Assembly: GCF_000002865.3 (NCBI RefSeq)
Contig: NW_001865051.1
Location: forward strand, 879,735 to 910,937
Direction of reading: 5' to 3'
Length of the DNA stretch: 31,203 nucleotides
Origin: Monosiga brevicollis MX1
Taxonomy: Eukaryota; Opisthokonta; Choanoflagellata; Craspedida; Salpingoecidae
In this document: piece by piece, positions 1-14,359 of the stretch
Numbering within the stretch: position 1 is the stretch's first letter
Layout: the number at the start of each line of letters is the position of its first letter
Notes under the pieces: model-generated
Told to the model about the DNA's origin: nothing
The model's input: the letters and a program-made list of their open reading frames with translations, nothing else
Database searches by the model: none
Program-made: the position numbers and the translations under genes

Positions 1-926
1 CCGCGGGGCGTGCCGAGGGCGTGCGAGGTGCACTGTGCGCCGGGTGCGCCGATCGCGTCGTCGTGTCACCGGACATCGGGCCCTCGTTGGCCGCTAGATT
101 ATCCGCGGGTCGTGCCGAGGGCGTGCGAGGTGCACTGTGCGCCGGGTGCGCCGATCGCGTCGTCGTGTCACCGGACATCGGGCCCTCGTTGGCCGCTAGA
201 TTATCCGCGGGTCGTGCCGAGGGCGTGCGAGGTGCACTGTGCGCCGGGTGCGCCGATCGCGTCGTCGTGTCACCGGACATCGGGCCCTCGTTGGCCGCTA
301 GATTTTCCGCGGGTCGTGCCGAGGGCGTGCGAGGTGCACTGTGCGCCGGGTGCGCCGATCGCGTCGTCGTGTCACCGGACATCGGGCCCTCGTTGGCCGC
401 TAGATTATCCGCGGGTCGTGCCGAGGGCGTGCGAGGTGCACTGTGCGCCGGGTGCGCCGATCGCGTCGTCGTGTCACCGGACATCGGGCCCTCGTTGGCC
501 GCTAGATTATCCGCGGGGCGTGCCGAGGGCGTGCGAGGTGCACTGTGCGCCGGGTGCGCCGATCGCGTCGTCGTGTTACCGGACATCGGGCCCTCGGTGG
601 CCGCTAGATTATCCGCGGGTCGTGCCGAGGGCGTGCGAGGTGCACTGTGCGCCGGGTGCGCCGATCGCGTCGTCGTGTCACCGGACATCGGGCCCTCGTT
701 GGCCGCTAGATTATCCGCGGGTCGTGCCGAGGGCGTGCGAGGTGCACTGTGCGCCGGGTGCGCCGATCGCGTCGTCGTGTCACCGGACATCGGGCCCTCG
801 TTGGCCGCTAGATTATCCGCGGGTCGTGCCGAGGGCGTGCGAGGTGCACTGTGCGCCGGGTGCGCCGATCGCGTCGTCGTGTCACCGGACATCGGGCCCT
901 CGTTGGCCGCTAGATTATTCGCAGGC
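1..926. repeat. 102-bp minisatellite, nine copies, in coding sequence
   Basis: A 102-bp unit is repeated head-to-tail about nine times (units start at 9, 111, 213 and so on) and runs off the left edge. Copies are almost identical. Variants include gattttcc at about 301, a unit at about 520-620 with gtgttacc and ccctcggtgg, and a diverged last copy at about 915-926. Because 102 is divisible by three, several frames stay open. The minus frame is the one continuous with the flanking coding sequence to 2254. There are no spacers, so this is not a CRISPR array. Confidence 0.95.
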
Positions 927-2435
927 CGTTGAGCTGGCACCAGGTCAGTTTTCTTGTGCACAAATTCTCTCTTCGTTGTAGTTTCTCCTACCATGACTCC
1001 GGGTTCGGGTTTGAGCGTATCTTTTGGGCGTTGCTCGGGCTCGCGCGCCTTGATAGGCATTGCTCGGAACGTTGACTTGTTCGTTGTTTCTCGTGAACTT
1101 GGTCCTTCTACTACGCACAAATTGTCGACTGGCTTTTTCACTGGAGTTCGTGGCAATGGCGCAAACGCTTGATGCGCTGACTTTGAGCTCGTGTCATCGC
1201 GGCTTGACATTTTGACATGCGGCGCATTGATGCCTGCTGAACCACCCTTGACTTCGTTTCTGCGCTGTAGAATCTGGGAAAGGGATGACGAAGACATCTC
1301 CACGGGTTCATCAAACTGACCAGCTTGTTTGCTTTCTGCAGGAGTAGGTGTCGACTTGGTGTTCCGATCTTTGCGCTTTGCGACCTTGGTCCTATCATCG
1401 GTTCCCTTGCGTAAGTTGCGTTGCCACTTTGAGGCAGGTTCATCAAAGCGGTGCTTGACCTCACGGCGAGAAACGCTTGGTGCTCCTGCTGTTTTTTCGC
1501 GATTGCTGATGCCAGGCTGTTCGCGTCGGACACGATATGTACGTTGGCGCTGCTTCTTCGCTTTGGCCTCGGTTTTTGAGGTCGGCTCAGCTGGCTGAGG
1601 CATTGCTGCGGTTACATTGGTTCCGCTGCCGCTAGCAGAAGCGGTTTCGGGAGTTTTGCGACGGGCAGGAAGCCAGCGCGTAATGCCTGTGGTGCGCCTT
1701 TGCGATGCCTGCTGCGCGGTTGCAGCGCGCACACTGCGGACGTTTGACGCTTTGCTGGAAGCATCAGCTTGTGAAGTAGCGGCACTGGCAATTGCCGTCG
1801 CGTTTGGGGTTGTTGAAGGCGTTTTCGTGCTTGAAAGGGGCGTCGATCCGGAGGGTGAATTGCCCAATGCGTGTTTGGCACCTTTGTCCTGGTTGGCGGC
1901 ACCGGACTTTGGCGCGGTAGAGCTTTTGCCTGTAATTGGATTATAACGGCGAGCAGAACTAGTCGTCACATTGGCTGTCACATTGTCAATGGAACGGGTT
2001 TTCCGTGGGACCACGCTCGAAGGTTCCAGAGTTGCCGTCGCAGACGATGAGCGTTCGCTGACGTGTTGACTGGAGCGGGTGCCTCGTGCAGCTGTGTTTG
2101 CAGCGGTAGCTGTCGCAGTTGCTCCCGAGGCTGGGAGTTGACTGGAAGCGGGTGGTGCGGTTGTTAGAATGGCTGGATGATCGAGCTGCTGCTCAGGGAA
2201 GGCACTTAAAGTAAAGGTATCGCGCCGTGGGCGTTGGCCTGGAGCACCGGCCGCCTGAGAAAAAAGACCGAGCGAGGATGATGAGTGGGAGTGCGATTAC
2301 AATCCGCTGGACCTGCTGAGTGGCAGGGAAGGATTGCGACAAAGGATCGTACGTCGCCAGCTCGGCGCAATGTGATGGTGTTACTCCTGGCCCGGCTTGG
2401 TCGGGTGGCTGTGCTCTCGCCGAAAATACCAGCAT
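1..2435 (-). CDS. Repeat-rich SAXO/MAP6-like putative microtubule-associated protein, 3' end missing
   Basis: On the minus strand a single frame stays open from about 2254 down to base 1 and leaves the window without a stop. It is easily missed because no start codon and stop bracket it locally. A likely first exon is 2313-2435 (ATG at 2435, 41 codons, phase-0 GT donor), joined over a 58-nt intron to an acceptor ending TTTTTTCTCAG at 2255. That gives about 792 residues in view. The first ~400 residues are Ser/Thr/Ala/Pro-rich with basic patches. Near the array come degenerate repeats (for example KDTLKPEPGVMVGETTTKRE), followed by nine near-identical 34-residue units with core DNLAANEGPMSGDTTT. 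The RPxDNL...EG...G.TTxR pattern resembles the Mn repeats by which SAXO/MAP6 proteins bind axonemal microtubules (recalled family pattern, not a search result). The coding call is strong; the family call is moderate. The C-terminus is unknown. Confidence 0.58.
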
Positions 2436-3606: not shown

Positions 3607-6007
3607 CTATTCAGCAATGGACATAAAGGCGGAGCTAGGCGCAAACAGCGTTGCCGGCTGTCGCCGATAATTGTGAGGCTTTAAGCTCACGCCGGTCGGC
3701 ACGTTCCAACCACCGCCAACAGCACCGGCACGGCGGTGCAGCGACGGCTGTGGATAGCCGGTCACAGACCCCGGCTGCTCTCTGTGATGGCGACCATCCG
3801 CTTGAGTCGAGCTGGGTTGTGGTGCAGAGTGATGTTGGGCCTGACGTCCAGGGCCCACGGGATCAGAGGTTGGAATTTGTAGAACCCGTCCAAAGCGGTC
3901 GAGTACGGCTTGTGTCTCGTGTCCCGAAACCGGTCGTGTGGACTGCGAGTGTGATGGTGAGCCTTCCACTGGCGCGATGGAAATGGGCAGGGGCTGATGA
4001 CTACGCGCAAACATGCCCTTGCCAATGCCAGAGCTGCCTTGAGGTGAGGACAGGGCAGCCGGGGGACCACGCGCTCTTGGGCTGGTGCCCTGTCGACCGG
4101 GCATAAGGCTTGCGTGCAGTGCATGCTGCTCATAGCGCCGCGGCTGCCGGCTGTCCATGTCTGGAACCTGAACGCGAGCGAGCGCGTTGGAGGCGGCGGC
4201 ACGCTGGTGGTCCAGGTGATGCGCCACATTCTGCATGTTAAGGTGCGACGAATCACCATTGAGACGAGCGCGCGCGCCGCCACTCGACAACGAGCCTGCG
4301 CTGCCATTGGGAGAAGCCCCGTCCAAGGTTCCACCCATGGCATGGCTCGTCTTTCGAAGAGACCCACTACCAGTAGCCACGAGGCCCTCGCTTCCGCCAC
4401 TGCCACCACTGCTGAAACGGCCAAAGCGCGATGGTGTGGGCAAGGCTGAGGGGGCCAGGGACAGAGGATTGACAGCGTTATTCGCAGCCCCTGGAACACG
4501 AGCAGGGGTGGCTTGCCCCAATCCGCGTTGCCCAGTGGCGGCCACAGATGCCCCAGTTCCTGGAACACGAGCAGGGGTGGCTTGCCCCAATCCGCGTTGC
4601 CCAGTGGCGGCCACAGATGCCCCAGTTCCTGGAACACGAGCAGGGGTGGCTTGCCCCAATCCGCGCTGCCCAGTGGCGGCCACAGATGCCATGCCCGAAG
4701 CGCTTGTCATGCCCGCAGAGCGCTGCGTCATGCCAGTGGCGGTAAAGGGACTTGAAGGATTGGGCTGATTGCCCGAGTCGATGCCATTGGAAGTGCCTGT
4801 CGTAGGAGCTTGCGTATCGCGCTGTGACTGTGTCAGGGATGACGGCAGGCTGGTGCCTTCCTCAGTTATCTCCTCACTGGCGCCTGGTACGCTCTCCACC
4901 GAGCCGTCAGCACCAAGCTGCTTATCAGCAAACTCGGCAAAGTAAGACTCGCGAAGCATGTCCTGAGCAGCTGGTCGGAGATAAGGATCGATGGTCAAAA
5001 GCTGCATCAAGGCTTGGCGGAGTTGAGGGGTGTAGACGGAAGGCAGGCGCTTGTCAAAGAGGCCATTGCGAATCTTGTGCATCAGTTCTTGAAGGTTCTT
5101 GGCCTCAAAAGTAGGCTTGAGTGTGCAGGCTTCATACAAGACGCAACCCAAGGCCCTGTGCCAGTGCAAAGAAGAGGACAGTGACATGCCGGCGCAGGTG
5201 CATTAGAATGAGATGAGACTGTGCAGTGGAATGCAAAGACAAGTGTGTGGGGAGCATGGCGCACCAAATGTCGACTTTTTGTGAGTAGGGGATGCCTTTA
5301 GTCTGCTCTGGAGCTTGATAAAGTGGCGTGCCGCAGGGCGTAGAGCAGGTTCGAAGCTGAATACGTTGTGCGTTGTCATCCAGGATGCGAGCACAACCCA
5401 AATCACCAAGCTTGACCACACCCGAGGGCATCAAGAAGATGTTGGCAGACTTGACGTCACGATGAATCATGCCTCGGCGATGGATGTAGGCCAAGGCCTG
5501 CATGATCTGGGTCATCCAAACCATGAGCTGATCTTCGGGCAGGTAGCGCTTGGTGCGCGAGCGCTCGTTTAGGAGCGTAGCCAGATCGCCCTGGTCGGCA
5601 TACTCCATGACAATGTAGACCATGCGTGGGGTTTTGACAACTTCCTGAAACTGAATGATAAAGGGGTGTCGTAACTGAGAGTGCACCTGTGCTTCGCTGC
5701 GAGCCTCCATCATGGCTTGATCGTTGTCAACGCTCATTTCCTTCATGCAAAAGTCTTCTTTCGTAGCCAAGTCGGTGGCCAACCAGGCCTTGCCAAAGGA
5801 ACCCAGTCTAGAGAAGGTACGGAATAGAGATTGATGAAAGCACGGTCATGTCATTTCGTTCCAAAGGCAAGACTAGCAGGGCGCATGCTATGACCACACA
5901 GACTTGGCCCGCACATACCCGATGATGCGTTTCTTCTGATACTTTTGGTGGATCTCAGTCAGGTTGGTGGCATTGCTGAGGTCAAAACGCCCTGGATTGA
6001 GGGCCAT
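3607..6007 (-). CDS. NEK-family (NIMA-related) serine/threonine kinase
   Basis: Three exons on the minus strand: 5919-6007, 5265-5807 and 3607-5155. Intron phases match exactly (phase 2 at both junctions) and give 726 aa. The kinase domain covers about residues 23-285. It has the glycine loop GLGSFGKA (30-37, rebuilt across intron 1), the ATP lysine in CMKE (K52), HRDVKSAN (HRD 145-147), DLG in place of DFG (165-167), an APE motif, and DIWALGCVLYE rebuilt exactly across intron 2. The DIWALGCVLYEACTLK block is characteristic of NEK kinases, which act in mitosis, at centrosomes and in cilia. The remaining ~440 residues are Ser/Pro/Gly-rich and probably disordered, with a three-fold 23-residue repeat. 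The start chosen is the ATG at 6007, the first in frame before the glycine-loop exon. The substrate cannot be inferred. Confidence 0.92.
4487..4691. repeat. 69-bp tandem repeat in the NEK tail
   Basis: Nearly three copies of a 69-bp unit encode the 23-residue motif ASVAATGQRGLGQATPARVP plus GTG on the minus strand. Copies differ by only one or two bases (for example cgcgttgc versus cgcgctgc), so the duplication is recent or actively homogenised. The unit length keeps the reading frame. Confidence 0.92.
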
Positions 6008-11065: not shown

Positions 11066-11369
11066 TTAACTGGTGTGGTACTACAAAAAGATAGTCACGA
11101 GGTGAGATGCTGGTGTGAAAGCCTCCAAGCTGTATCAAGATTGCAGGCCTCAAAGTGACTCGAGATATCAAAAACTTACCGAGGACATGTCAAATGGATG
11201 ATGATGATAGGAACTGTCATGGTCACCCATGCCGCCGTGCTGGGCACTGCCCCGGCTGGCATCCGAGCTACTACCGGAAGGACCAACAGAGGGCGTGTAC
11301 TTGCTTGAGGCGCTGTAGGGCTGCTGCTGTTGACCTTGGTGGAACATGTAAGGAGGGAAGCCCATGCCA

Positions 11370-11419
<50 letters not shown>

Positions 11420-14359
11420 AGCGCCCATGCCGCCCATAGCGCCCATGCCACCCATGGTGCCCATGCCGCCCATGCCGCCCATAGCGCCCATGCCACCCAT
11501 AGTGCCCATGCCACCCATGGCGCCCATAGCGCTCATGGGGTACACGTAGTTCATGCCGCCCATGGGATACATCCCAGTGTTTTGCTGACCGCGCATGGAT
11601 GAGGGGTTGCCGTGTGACTTGCCGCTGTGCTGCTGCTGGCTACGAGGGCCCGATTGACGACCACCACTGTTGTAGGCATTGTGTGTGCCATAGTAAGCTT
11701 GTTGCTGATAGTTAGCCATGTTGCCCATTGGGTACGAGCCCTTGGTGTAGCCGTGTGACTCGTAGCCTGAAGCCCCAGAATGCTCGTATCCATACGGCAT
11801 ACCCATGTGCCCAGTAGGCATATGTTGGCCTTGCTGCTGGGGCTGAGGCTGTTGCTGCTGCTGCTGCTGCTGCTGCTGAGATTGCGGCTGCTGGGGTTGA
11901 GGCAGCGACGTTTGTTGCTGGGATGGCTGCTGGGGCTGCGCGGGAGCCATCTGGCTGGTCTGATGCGCAGGTGGTTGTTGTGAAGGCATCTGGACCGGGC
12001 TGTGCTGCTGCAGTTGCGGTTGCAGATGTTGCTGCTGCTGCTGCAGGTGTTGCTGTTGTGCCTGCTGCGCAAAGTTGGGGTTGACCGAGGGCTGAGCATC
12101 AGGCGCCGTCACACCCAGACCGCCGAGGGGACCCATGCCAGAGCTAGGAGCATCGATGGAGGTGGCCACGGAAGAGGGGAGGGAAGCAGGCAGCGGGGTG
12201 TTGAACTGATTGTTGAGGGGAGGCAGATCAAATGTGTTGTTGCCAGTGTTGATGGACGACTCGGCGCTAGCAGAGACGGTCGCGGGGGCGGGGGCCGAGA
12301 GAGGGGCAGCTGAGGTAGCAGGGCTCTTGGCACCGACGGGCTCGGGGGCAGTGTCGGCGTGGACGCCGAAATTGATACCCAGGTTGCCGAAGGTGGTGTC
12401 AAAGTTGGTGTTGAGCGAAGGCATCTTGACAACCTCATCATGGCCTGCGGACGTGGTGCGAGTGTACTTGCCAGCACCCTCGAGGGGGGGAAGCCATCCA
12501 GGAGCGGACTTGTCGGCGTCATCCTTGGCGGGCCAGTTGGTCGTCCATTCACTGGCAGCGTTGGTGGTACCCCAGGCATCCTTGGGGGGCGCAGAGCTGG
12601 GAGCAGCAGCGGGAGAAGCCGACACTGCAGGAGGCGCGGCCGCAGGGGCAGCGGGCTCGGTGGGAGCTGCAGGCTCAGTTGCGACGGGTTTAGGGCTGGG
12701 CCAAGACGCTGGCTCGGGCTTGGCAGGCTCCTGCTTGCTGCTGTTGTTGGAACCGGGTGCACCGGCAGACCAAGCATTCCAAGGAGCAGCTGAAGTGACA
12801 GTGGCCGCGGCTGCTGACTCGGGCGCTGCGGCTGGCTCGGGCAGAACAGCAGGGGTGTCCGACTTCTTCGCTGCAGTGGTAGGGTCGGGCAGGACGAGGG
12901 CATCAGCGTTGGCTGTTTCCTCCTTGCGGCCACGACCAGTTTTGCGGGCCTCGGCCTCAGCAGCCGCCGCAGCAGGCGTAGGCTGTGCTGCTGCTGCCGC
13001 TGCAGGGGTGGGTGCCGTCGCCAGCGTGGGTTTGGGAGGCTGGGGCTTTTGACTGTAACATGAGAGGATACAGTACACCACGAGGTGAGAGAAAGGATGG
13101 GAGTCAAGGCAGGTGGTTGGGCAGCCTGAAAGCAATGAGCTGAGATCAAGTAATTGGCAGCGTTGATCTTACCCAAAGAGAAGCTTGGACCAAGTCATGG
13201 GCTGTGGACCCTTGGGCTTTTCGGGTGCCTGCGGGGCCTGTTGTGTTTGTTGCTCCGGCGTGGAAACGGCAGCTTCGGTATCTGCGGCAGGAGTGGATTG
13301 ACGCAGCTCTGGGTTGACGCCACGGCCCGTACCTGCGGCAGCACCACGACCGGCACCACCACGGCCACGGCCACGACCCGTACCACGTCCACGGCCTAAT
13401 CATGCGCGCCCGTCCGGGGGAAGGTCACGAAAGATGGCAATCGTGAGACCTCGAGTTGTCCAACCACATCAATCCAGCCCAGAGAGCAAAGAGGGAAGGA
13501 GATGGGGCAGCTCGAGTAGCAGCTGACAATAAATGAGGCGAGGTCAGAAAAGCACGGTATGCGTACCTCGGCCTCGAGCACCGGCAAAACCGTTACTGTC
13601 GCCTTCGCCCTCACCGCGACCGCGACCACGAGGACGTGAGCCACGCTCACCCCGCGGGGCGCCATTGCTGTGATACTGATTCGAATCGCCGTCACCACGA
13701 GCAGCGGCACGAGCCGTCTTGCTCTTGGACTTTGAAGTCTGTGCCTGGGGCTGTCCATCCCGCGTCAGCTCTTCAAAGGCCCGATCAACATTGTTGTTGC
13801 AATCGCGCAAAGCTGTGACAAGGGTAAGCAGGGCAATGATGTGAGACGGCAAGAAGATGAGGGACGCCATGTGAGTGTGACGCGTTGGCAGGAGGGGGAG
13901 AGCAGGTGAAACATACTAAAGAGCATGTCATCATCTGAAGCATAAGAGCCAACGATGCTCAACTGAGTCTTGAGCTATAAACGCGGAGACGAGTCCCAAA
14001 CAGCGTGAGAGGCATTTGCGGAATGATCTTTTTTTTTTTTTTTTTTTTTAAAAAAAAAAGGGTGTGTGTGTTGGGGGGGGGAGAACAAGAGGAAAAAGAA
14101 GAAACAGATGGGAAGGCGAAGACGAAGGGGCTGACCTTTTTGAAGGCGGCGGAGAGCTCCGAATCAAGCTCGTCCTAGAGAAGGAGAGTGAGAGAGAGAT
14201 GGATGTGAGCCAGAACGGCGACTCGTTTTGGAGACATGCAGAGCTTGAAGGGCATTGAGTGAAAACACGGGAAGAGACGAGACGTACGACAAGTACTGCC
14301 GACATGACGCTGGTGTTGTGCGAGAAGCTGCTGGTAACCACGCTAGAGGGAGAGGCCAT
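11066..14359 (-). CDS. Lingerer/UBAP2-like protein: UBA domain, RGG, Gln-rich and Met/Gly-rich tail
   Basis: Seven exons on the minus strand: 14288-14359, 14136-14174, 13917-13974, 13567-13812, 13173-13395, 11180-13052, 11066-11080. Phases agree and give 841 aa. The UBA domain (about 30-85) is split over exons 2-4; its DDMLFTLRDCNNNVDRAF aligns with the ...ALHDCNGDVNRA... core of UBAP2/UBAP2L. RG/RGG repeats follow (about 107-165), then a long Ala/Pro-rich region with Trp motifs (PWNAW, DAWG, SEWTTNW). VKMPSLNTNF...FGNLGINFG (about 417-440) resembles the conserved Lingerer/UBAP2 motif of the type VEMPG...FG.L.FG. The tail has polyGln (about 600-615) and a Met-Gly-Gly-Met block (about 710-777). 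Animal members bind RNA and ubiquitin pathways and promote stress granules. The last exon codes only YHTS. Exon 1 is the least certain. Yeast Def1-like proteins share the architecture. Confidence 0.78.
11357..11560. repeat. Met-Gly-Gly coding repeat
   Basis: A GC-rich tandem array of ccc-atg-cc-type triplets encodes about 20 Met-Gly-Gly-Met or Met-Gly-Ala-Met steps on the minus strand, at about residues 710-777 of the UBAP2-like protein. The same DNA is open in other frames (His-Ala-Ala, Met-Pro-Pro), which are shadows. Confidence 0.85.

Follow-up and report, generated by a model that had tools for sequence, protein, structure and literature searches.

Does the 102-bp minisatellite at one edge of this Monosiga brevicollis locus encode protein, and if so, on which strand and of what kind? 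The window, meaning the whole stretch of 31,203 nucleotides that was analyzed, corresponds to C44:879735-910937, where C44 is one of the 57 contigs of a 39.47-Mb genome. Its first 929 bases are occupied by a tandem array of 9.1 copies (98% matches by TRF), which a first-pass annotation had proposed to be read from the minus strand as 34-residue SAXO-like units. Translation of that strand gives TTTRSAHPAHSAPRTPSARPADNLAANEGPMSGD as the array unit, or 34 residues per 102-bp copy. The analyses described herein make it probable that the locus is a minus-strand protein-coding gene, and that its array exon specifies a long extended protein whose 34-residue units are related to the Mn repeats of the SAXO/MAP6/SPM1 proteins.

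Reading frame and boundaries of the array gene

Window base 1 adjoins a run of 4512 N bases (C44:875223-879734). A minus-frame stop codon just left of the window had been named, together with a lack of profile similarity, as grounds for giving up the claim, and none was found there. Rather, on the left of the N run the array picks up again with 5.7 further copies in an unchanged frame, as judged by TRF and translation, and beyond these copies come a diverged last unit and then a stop. The sequence that follows the far-side array reads 'TTTLSTFVELP...RRVSFI', and the stop lies at C44:874276, or window coordinate -5458. The N run probably has an estimated length rather than one measured from sequence, because it misses a multiple of 102 by 24 bases and the two array parts that it separates are out of phase.

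The sequenced copies are highly uniform. Eight of the 14 motif-bearing copies are identical to the consensus, and only seven differences are present overall (four residue-changing and three silent). This pattern indicates that the array is one of recent homogenization, in which a single unit was amplified and is flanked by diverged units on both sides. Searches of the genome revealed no 102-bp unit elsewhere (all seven DNA matches are at the array locus) and no paralogues of the repeat protein elsewhere (all eight protein matches are at the array locus), and an Rfam search of the window yielded 0 matches.

The minus frame is open from an in-frame stop at window 2297-2299, which bounds it on the 5′ side, up to the window edge, and no sequenced array copy carries a stop in this frame. 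It also stays open for about 1.3 kb past the array, as the first-pass annotation had observed. Specifically, window 931-2254 holds 441 stop-free codons, a run reached by 0 of 2000 dinucleotide shuffles (longest six-frame run 427), and the remaining five frames carry 7 to 20 stops each in this region. Past the far end of the array, the minus frame is open for approximately 120 codons to its stop, a length that 202 of 2000 shuffles reach and that is not significant alone. Two plus frames are open throughout the array (window 1-981 and 3-932), which had likewise been recognized earlier. These frames close 52 and 3 bases past the end of the array; across the N run, their starts lie 2 and 11 residues beyond the other end of the array. 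The third plus frame has stops within the array.

The diverged region outside the array was also compared with the array in each frame, giving local scores of 143 for the minus frame, 95 for plus frame 3, and 18 to 35 for the other four. One diverged unit, called u1, scores 80 against the array unit, which is matched by 0 of 5000 shuffles. With the two units aligned by protein motif, a choice that favors residue identity, 13 of 23 aligned residues are kept, and changes are found at 19 of 23 third codon positions compared to 15 of 46 first and second positions (Fisher p 1e-4). This third-position pattern cannot choose between the minus frame and plus frame 3 because both share the same wobble position, whereas the distribution of stops does choose. 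Judged from the sequence, the minus strand of the array is the coding one, and every 102-bp copy specifies a single 34-residue unit.

Codon usage is an ambiguous guide to the strand. The minus frame is the best of six in window 931-2254 (-0.16 versus -0.36 to -0.50) but plus frame 3 scores better than the minus frame for the array unit. The minus-frame value is far under that of known coding segments (0.39, sd 0.11), for which 56 segments served as the reference after four of 60 were removed (three with stops and one from the window). A score based on synonymous choices only barely separated the frames.

Three diverged units (window 881-1192, minus) precede the array in the direction of translation, and one comes after it. 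Unit u1 (1088-1192) reads TSSKSAHQAFAPLPRTPVKKPVDNLCVVEGPSSRE and carries His at the aromatic slot, like the array. Unit u2 (983-1087) reads TTNKSTFRAMPIKAREPEQRPKDTLKPEPGVMVGE with Phe at this slot, and u3 (881-982) consists of TTTKREFVHKKTDLVPAQRP plus an array-type tail, again with Phe at the Mn aromatic slot. The RPxDNL..EG..G.TTxR pattern that had drawn attention to this frame is present in the minus translation. Ahead of the units is a nonrepetitive N-terminal part (1193-2254, minus), which belongs to the 931-2254 stop-free run, is Ser/Thr/Ala-rich and then Lys/Arg-rich, and gave 0 Pfam matches at E up to 10. The end given in the first-pass annotation, 2254, falls at a splice-acceptor-like TTTTTTCTCAG followed by GCGG. 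This putative 3′ splice site (2255-2265, minus), predicted from nucleotide sequence only, lies just before exon codon 1 in phase 0. Several ATG-to-GT candidates for a first exon occur upstream, none of them convincing. AlphaFold modeling of window 725-1228 on the minus strand (168 residues) predicted disorder (pLDDT 53.8), which has no bearing either way on the SAXO reading.

Other features are found in the neighborhood. Upstream of the SAXO-like gene and on the same strand is a protein kinase gene (window 3607-5900, minus) that matches PF00069 over 5135-5746, has a weaker sub-cut-off end in 3610-5187, and appears NEK-like by eye. It holds its own 69-bp coding repeat of 2.9 copies (4490-4690). 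Another kinase match, at C7:86597-87154 on a different contig, sits inside a 29192-residue open frame that may result from translation through a long stretch of Ns. Farther along the window, a Copine domain (PF07002; 9445-9970, plus) is split over two reading frames that are probably two exons, and a 9/45-bp repeat (11361-11537) codes for a Met/Gly-rich segment of a minus-strand ORF that is Gln-rich and has no Pfam match. Elsewhere in the genome, one Sec1-family exon is identical at 43 of 44 residues to UNC18 of PDB 2xhe_A, a Monosiga brevicollis chain, another matched Vps45, and an ORF with three PDZ domains matched no PDB chains but DLG-like ones. The 146 PDZ matches in the genome agree with the more than 150 given for M. 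brevicollis (PMC8512817).

Evidence for relatedness to SAXO proteins

The search against SAXO profiles that had been proposed earlier gave a divided result. Matches to Pfam SAXO1-2 (PF05217) do not reach the gathering cut-off of 26.5 bits with the window ORF (19.0), the array alone (24.4), or the far-side part (16.6). Two units alone produced no SAXO family match and three produced one at E 0.053, while a 168-residue stretch holding the diverged units gave no Pfam match. Pfam was dropped as sole proof, since a translation of the array in the wrong frame (plus frame 3) exceeds the cut-off for the HHH_5 family and profile scores on the array therefore prove little. Given this inflation and the loss of the SAXO match by short segments, permutation and shuffle controls were used.

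In a PDB search with window 2-1603, SAXO1 (8ou0_D) was the sole match at E up to 1, with E 3.4e-7. Its local phmmer score of 22.6 bits was reached by 0 of 2000 versions in which the unit was permuted with period and composition kept (best 8.3, a score being reported in 1520 of the 2000). When five distinct units were compared with nine SAXO1 units by hhalign, 31 of 34 columns aligned in register (E 7.8e-6), 0 of 300 column shuffles reached the score, and the E value was still 4.2e-5 without the array row. There was no signal with u1 and u2 only (E 0.06), and a PDB search with the five-row unit profile at E up to 10 failed to recover SAXO1. Searches of the genome with SAXO1 and with PF05217 each gave five matches at E up to 10, all confined to the array ORF and weak (best E 0.024 and 0.44, respectively). 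A genome search for the MDM1/SAXO6 family gave no match, but the controls were silent as well and so this result carries no information.

The units are arranged in tandem at a spacing of 34-35 residues and in a fixed register, TT-x-[KR]-x-x-[F/H], then about 12 residues, then [KR]P. A SAXO1-derived matrix fits u2, u3, the array unit, and the last unit (p 0.0055 to 0.00025) and does not fit u1 (p 0.43), and the pattern [TS][TSN]x4[YF]x11[KR]P is found twice among 625 non-redundant residues, as against twice among 268,313 background-frame residues, with both tests framed only after the units were known. High Pro content and a basic pI, which are used to recognize SAXO proteins, are seen in the 751-residue window part of the protein (11.2% Pro, computed pI 11.0); taken by itself, the array unit has 14.7% Pro but a pI of 6.6. 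The N-terminal cysteine cluster known as SAXO motif 1 was not found in the window part, which has a single Cys and does not take in the upstream exon.

The units depart from the Mn motif at its aromatic residue. The Mn syntax as given in PMC10973386, [TS][TS]x4[YF], fits only three of the 18 sequenced motifs (u2, u3, and the last unit), and these flank the array on both sides. In the other 15 (u1 plus the 14 copies of the array), His occupies the position of the Mn Tyr or Phe. Because u1 and the array share SAH even though most u1 third codon positions differ, His looks older than the amplification. The effect of His at this slot is probably a weaker or altered contact per unit, for which the large number of copies may make up.

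SAXO1 and SAXO2 (FAM154; PF05217; 8ou0 chain D), which include the best PDB match, likewise have tandem units of about 33-34 residues, are Pro-rich and basic, and carry TT-x-[KR]-x-x-aromatic with [KR]P 18-19 residues on. Unlike these proteins, the Monosiga protein falls under the Pfam cut-off, has His in its amplified unit, and shows no Cys cluster in its window part. Its 18 sequenced motifs (14 of them near-identical) compare with 10 or more reported for human SAXO1 and SAXO2 (PMC9564825). TbSAXO and PfSAXO are described as alternating a roughly 15-residue Mn-like motif with an inter-repeat of 18-20 residues, with which the Monosiga spacing of about 33-35 residues agrees, and the PfSAXO repeats are described as highly conserved; in contrast, those proteins have 6 and 12 motifs (PMC3280300). 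Each internal repeat of apicomplexan SPM1 is believed to engage a single tubulin dimer along the protofilament, four or more of the six SPM1 repeats are needed for localization, and repeat number among SPM1 homologues varies by species from 5 to 13 copies (PMC8144581). Copy number is higher in the Monosiga array, and the likeness to SPM1 rests on the description of that protein rather than on its sequence.

Thus, the earlier description of these units as SAXO-like holds with regard to register, spacing, and profile similarity to SAXO1, while the Pfam cut-off is not reached and three of the 18 motifs keep the Mn aromatic residue. The evidence supports distant homology to SAXO proteins rather than clean family membership.

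Alternative explanations

It might be reasonable to view the product as an unrelated low-complexity protein, rich in Pro, Thr, Ala, and Ser and encoded on the same minus strand, whose likeness to SAXO is convergent. The sub-threshold Pfam score, the short segments without a match, and the aromatic residue lost in 15 of 18 motifs are all consistent with this view, as is the abundance of tandem-repeat proteins in M. brevicollis (690 of 9,269 proteins according to PMC2805694). However, convergence does not readily explain why register and spacing agree with SAXO1 units over 31 columns to a degree that no column shuffle attains, why no composition- and period-matched permutation reaches the SAXO1 score, or why Phe-bearing units flank the array on both sides. 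We therefore regard this explanation as unlikely, although it deserves real weight.

Two further possibilities dispute the coding strand or coding itself. A noncoding minisatellite with a fortuitously open frame, or a decayed gene, would be consistent with the lukewarm codon usage and with the few differences among copies, which show no silent excess. The 441 stop-free codons beyond the array, the lack of stops in the sequenced copies, and the concentration of u1-to-array changes at third codon positions argue otherwise, and we consider such an origin very improbable. Still harder to accept, and in our estimation nearly negligible, is coding on the plus strand, where frame 3 (window 3-929) would specify helix-hairpin-helix-like units. 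This frame matches HHH_5 (PF14520) at 47.4 bits, over a cut-off of 27, has the better codon score for the array unit, shares its wobble position with the minus frame, and resembles the diverged region (95) more than in any of 5000 shuffles. Yet this frame hardly extends beyond the repeat: it ends 3 bases past the near side of the array, opens 11 residues outside the far side, and is interrupted by a stop in the diverged region. Moreover, two copies alone match HHH_5 at E 0.014 and three at 0.0017, accompanied by 11 and 16 assorted families that are mostly zinc-ribbon types, and the HHH_5 match therefore fits a repeat-inflated, Cys-rich false match. The same plus-strand translation also exceeds the cut-offs (27) of YhfS-like_C (31.8 bits) and DZR_2 (27.3 bits). 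A tandem repeat readily yields an above-cut-off profile match in the wrong frame.

Possible function and implications

The most likely interpretation is a divergent, amplified protein of the SAXO/Mn type that is encoded by a real coding minisatellite. Mn motifs are described as short helices at the tubulin intradimer interface, 8 nm apart along the protofilament (PMC9564825). By analogy, each Monosiga unit may, like an Mn unit with its 8-nm period, run along one tubulin dimer within flagellar microtubules, and copy number would then set the number of dimers spanned per molecule. The 18 sequenced motifs would correspond to a span of approximately 144 nm, and to more if the N run holds copies; if the length of this run is right, it could house about 44 more units. 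Gain or loss of a repeat copy would probably lengthen or shorten the protein by a single binding module, and a role in flagellar stability can be envisaged on the same analogy.

We also speculate, as a considerably bolder and rather doubtful proposal, that the product is a very large microtubule inner protein of filamentous form. Tens of Mn-derived His units would follow one another along the doublet lumen, and minisatellite copy number would act as an inherited molecular ruler of the reach of a single molecule. A protein of this kind could be a constituent of filaments seen in the lumen, for instance the unassigned rail-MIP of Salpingoeca rosetta flagella (PMC9671500), although the latter is about 3.5 nm wide and was described in a different species.

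The authors who defined the SAXO family report having identified no orthologue in Monosiga (PMC3280300). Our literature search yielded no report of a choanoflagellate SAXO among the papers covered, which did not include PMC11153136 and PMC3789837, each holding both 'choanoflagellate' and 'MAP6'. If the divergent, amplified protein described above is a true SAXO, then the family extends to a choanoflagellate in a form that is both divergent and amplified, and a natural copy-number series could be used to test the additivity of Mn units along the protofilament.
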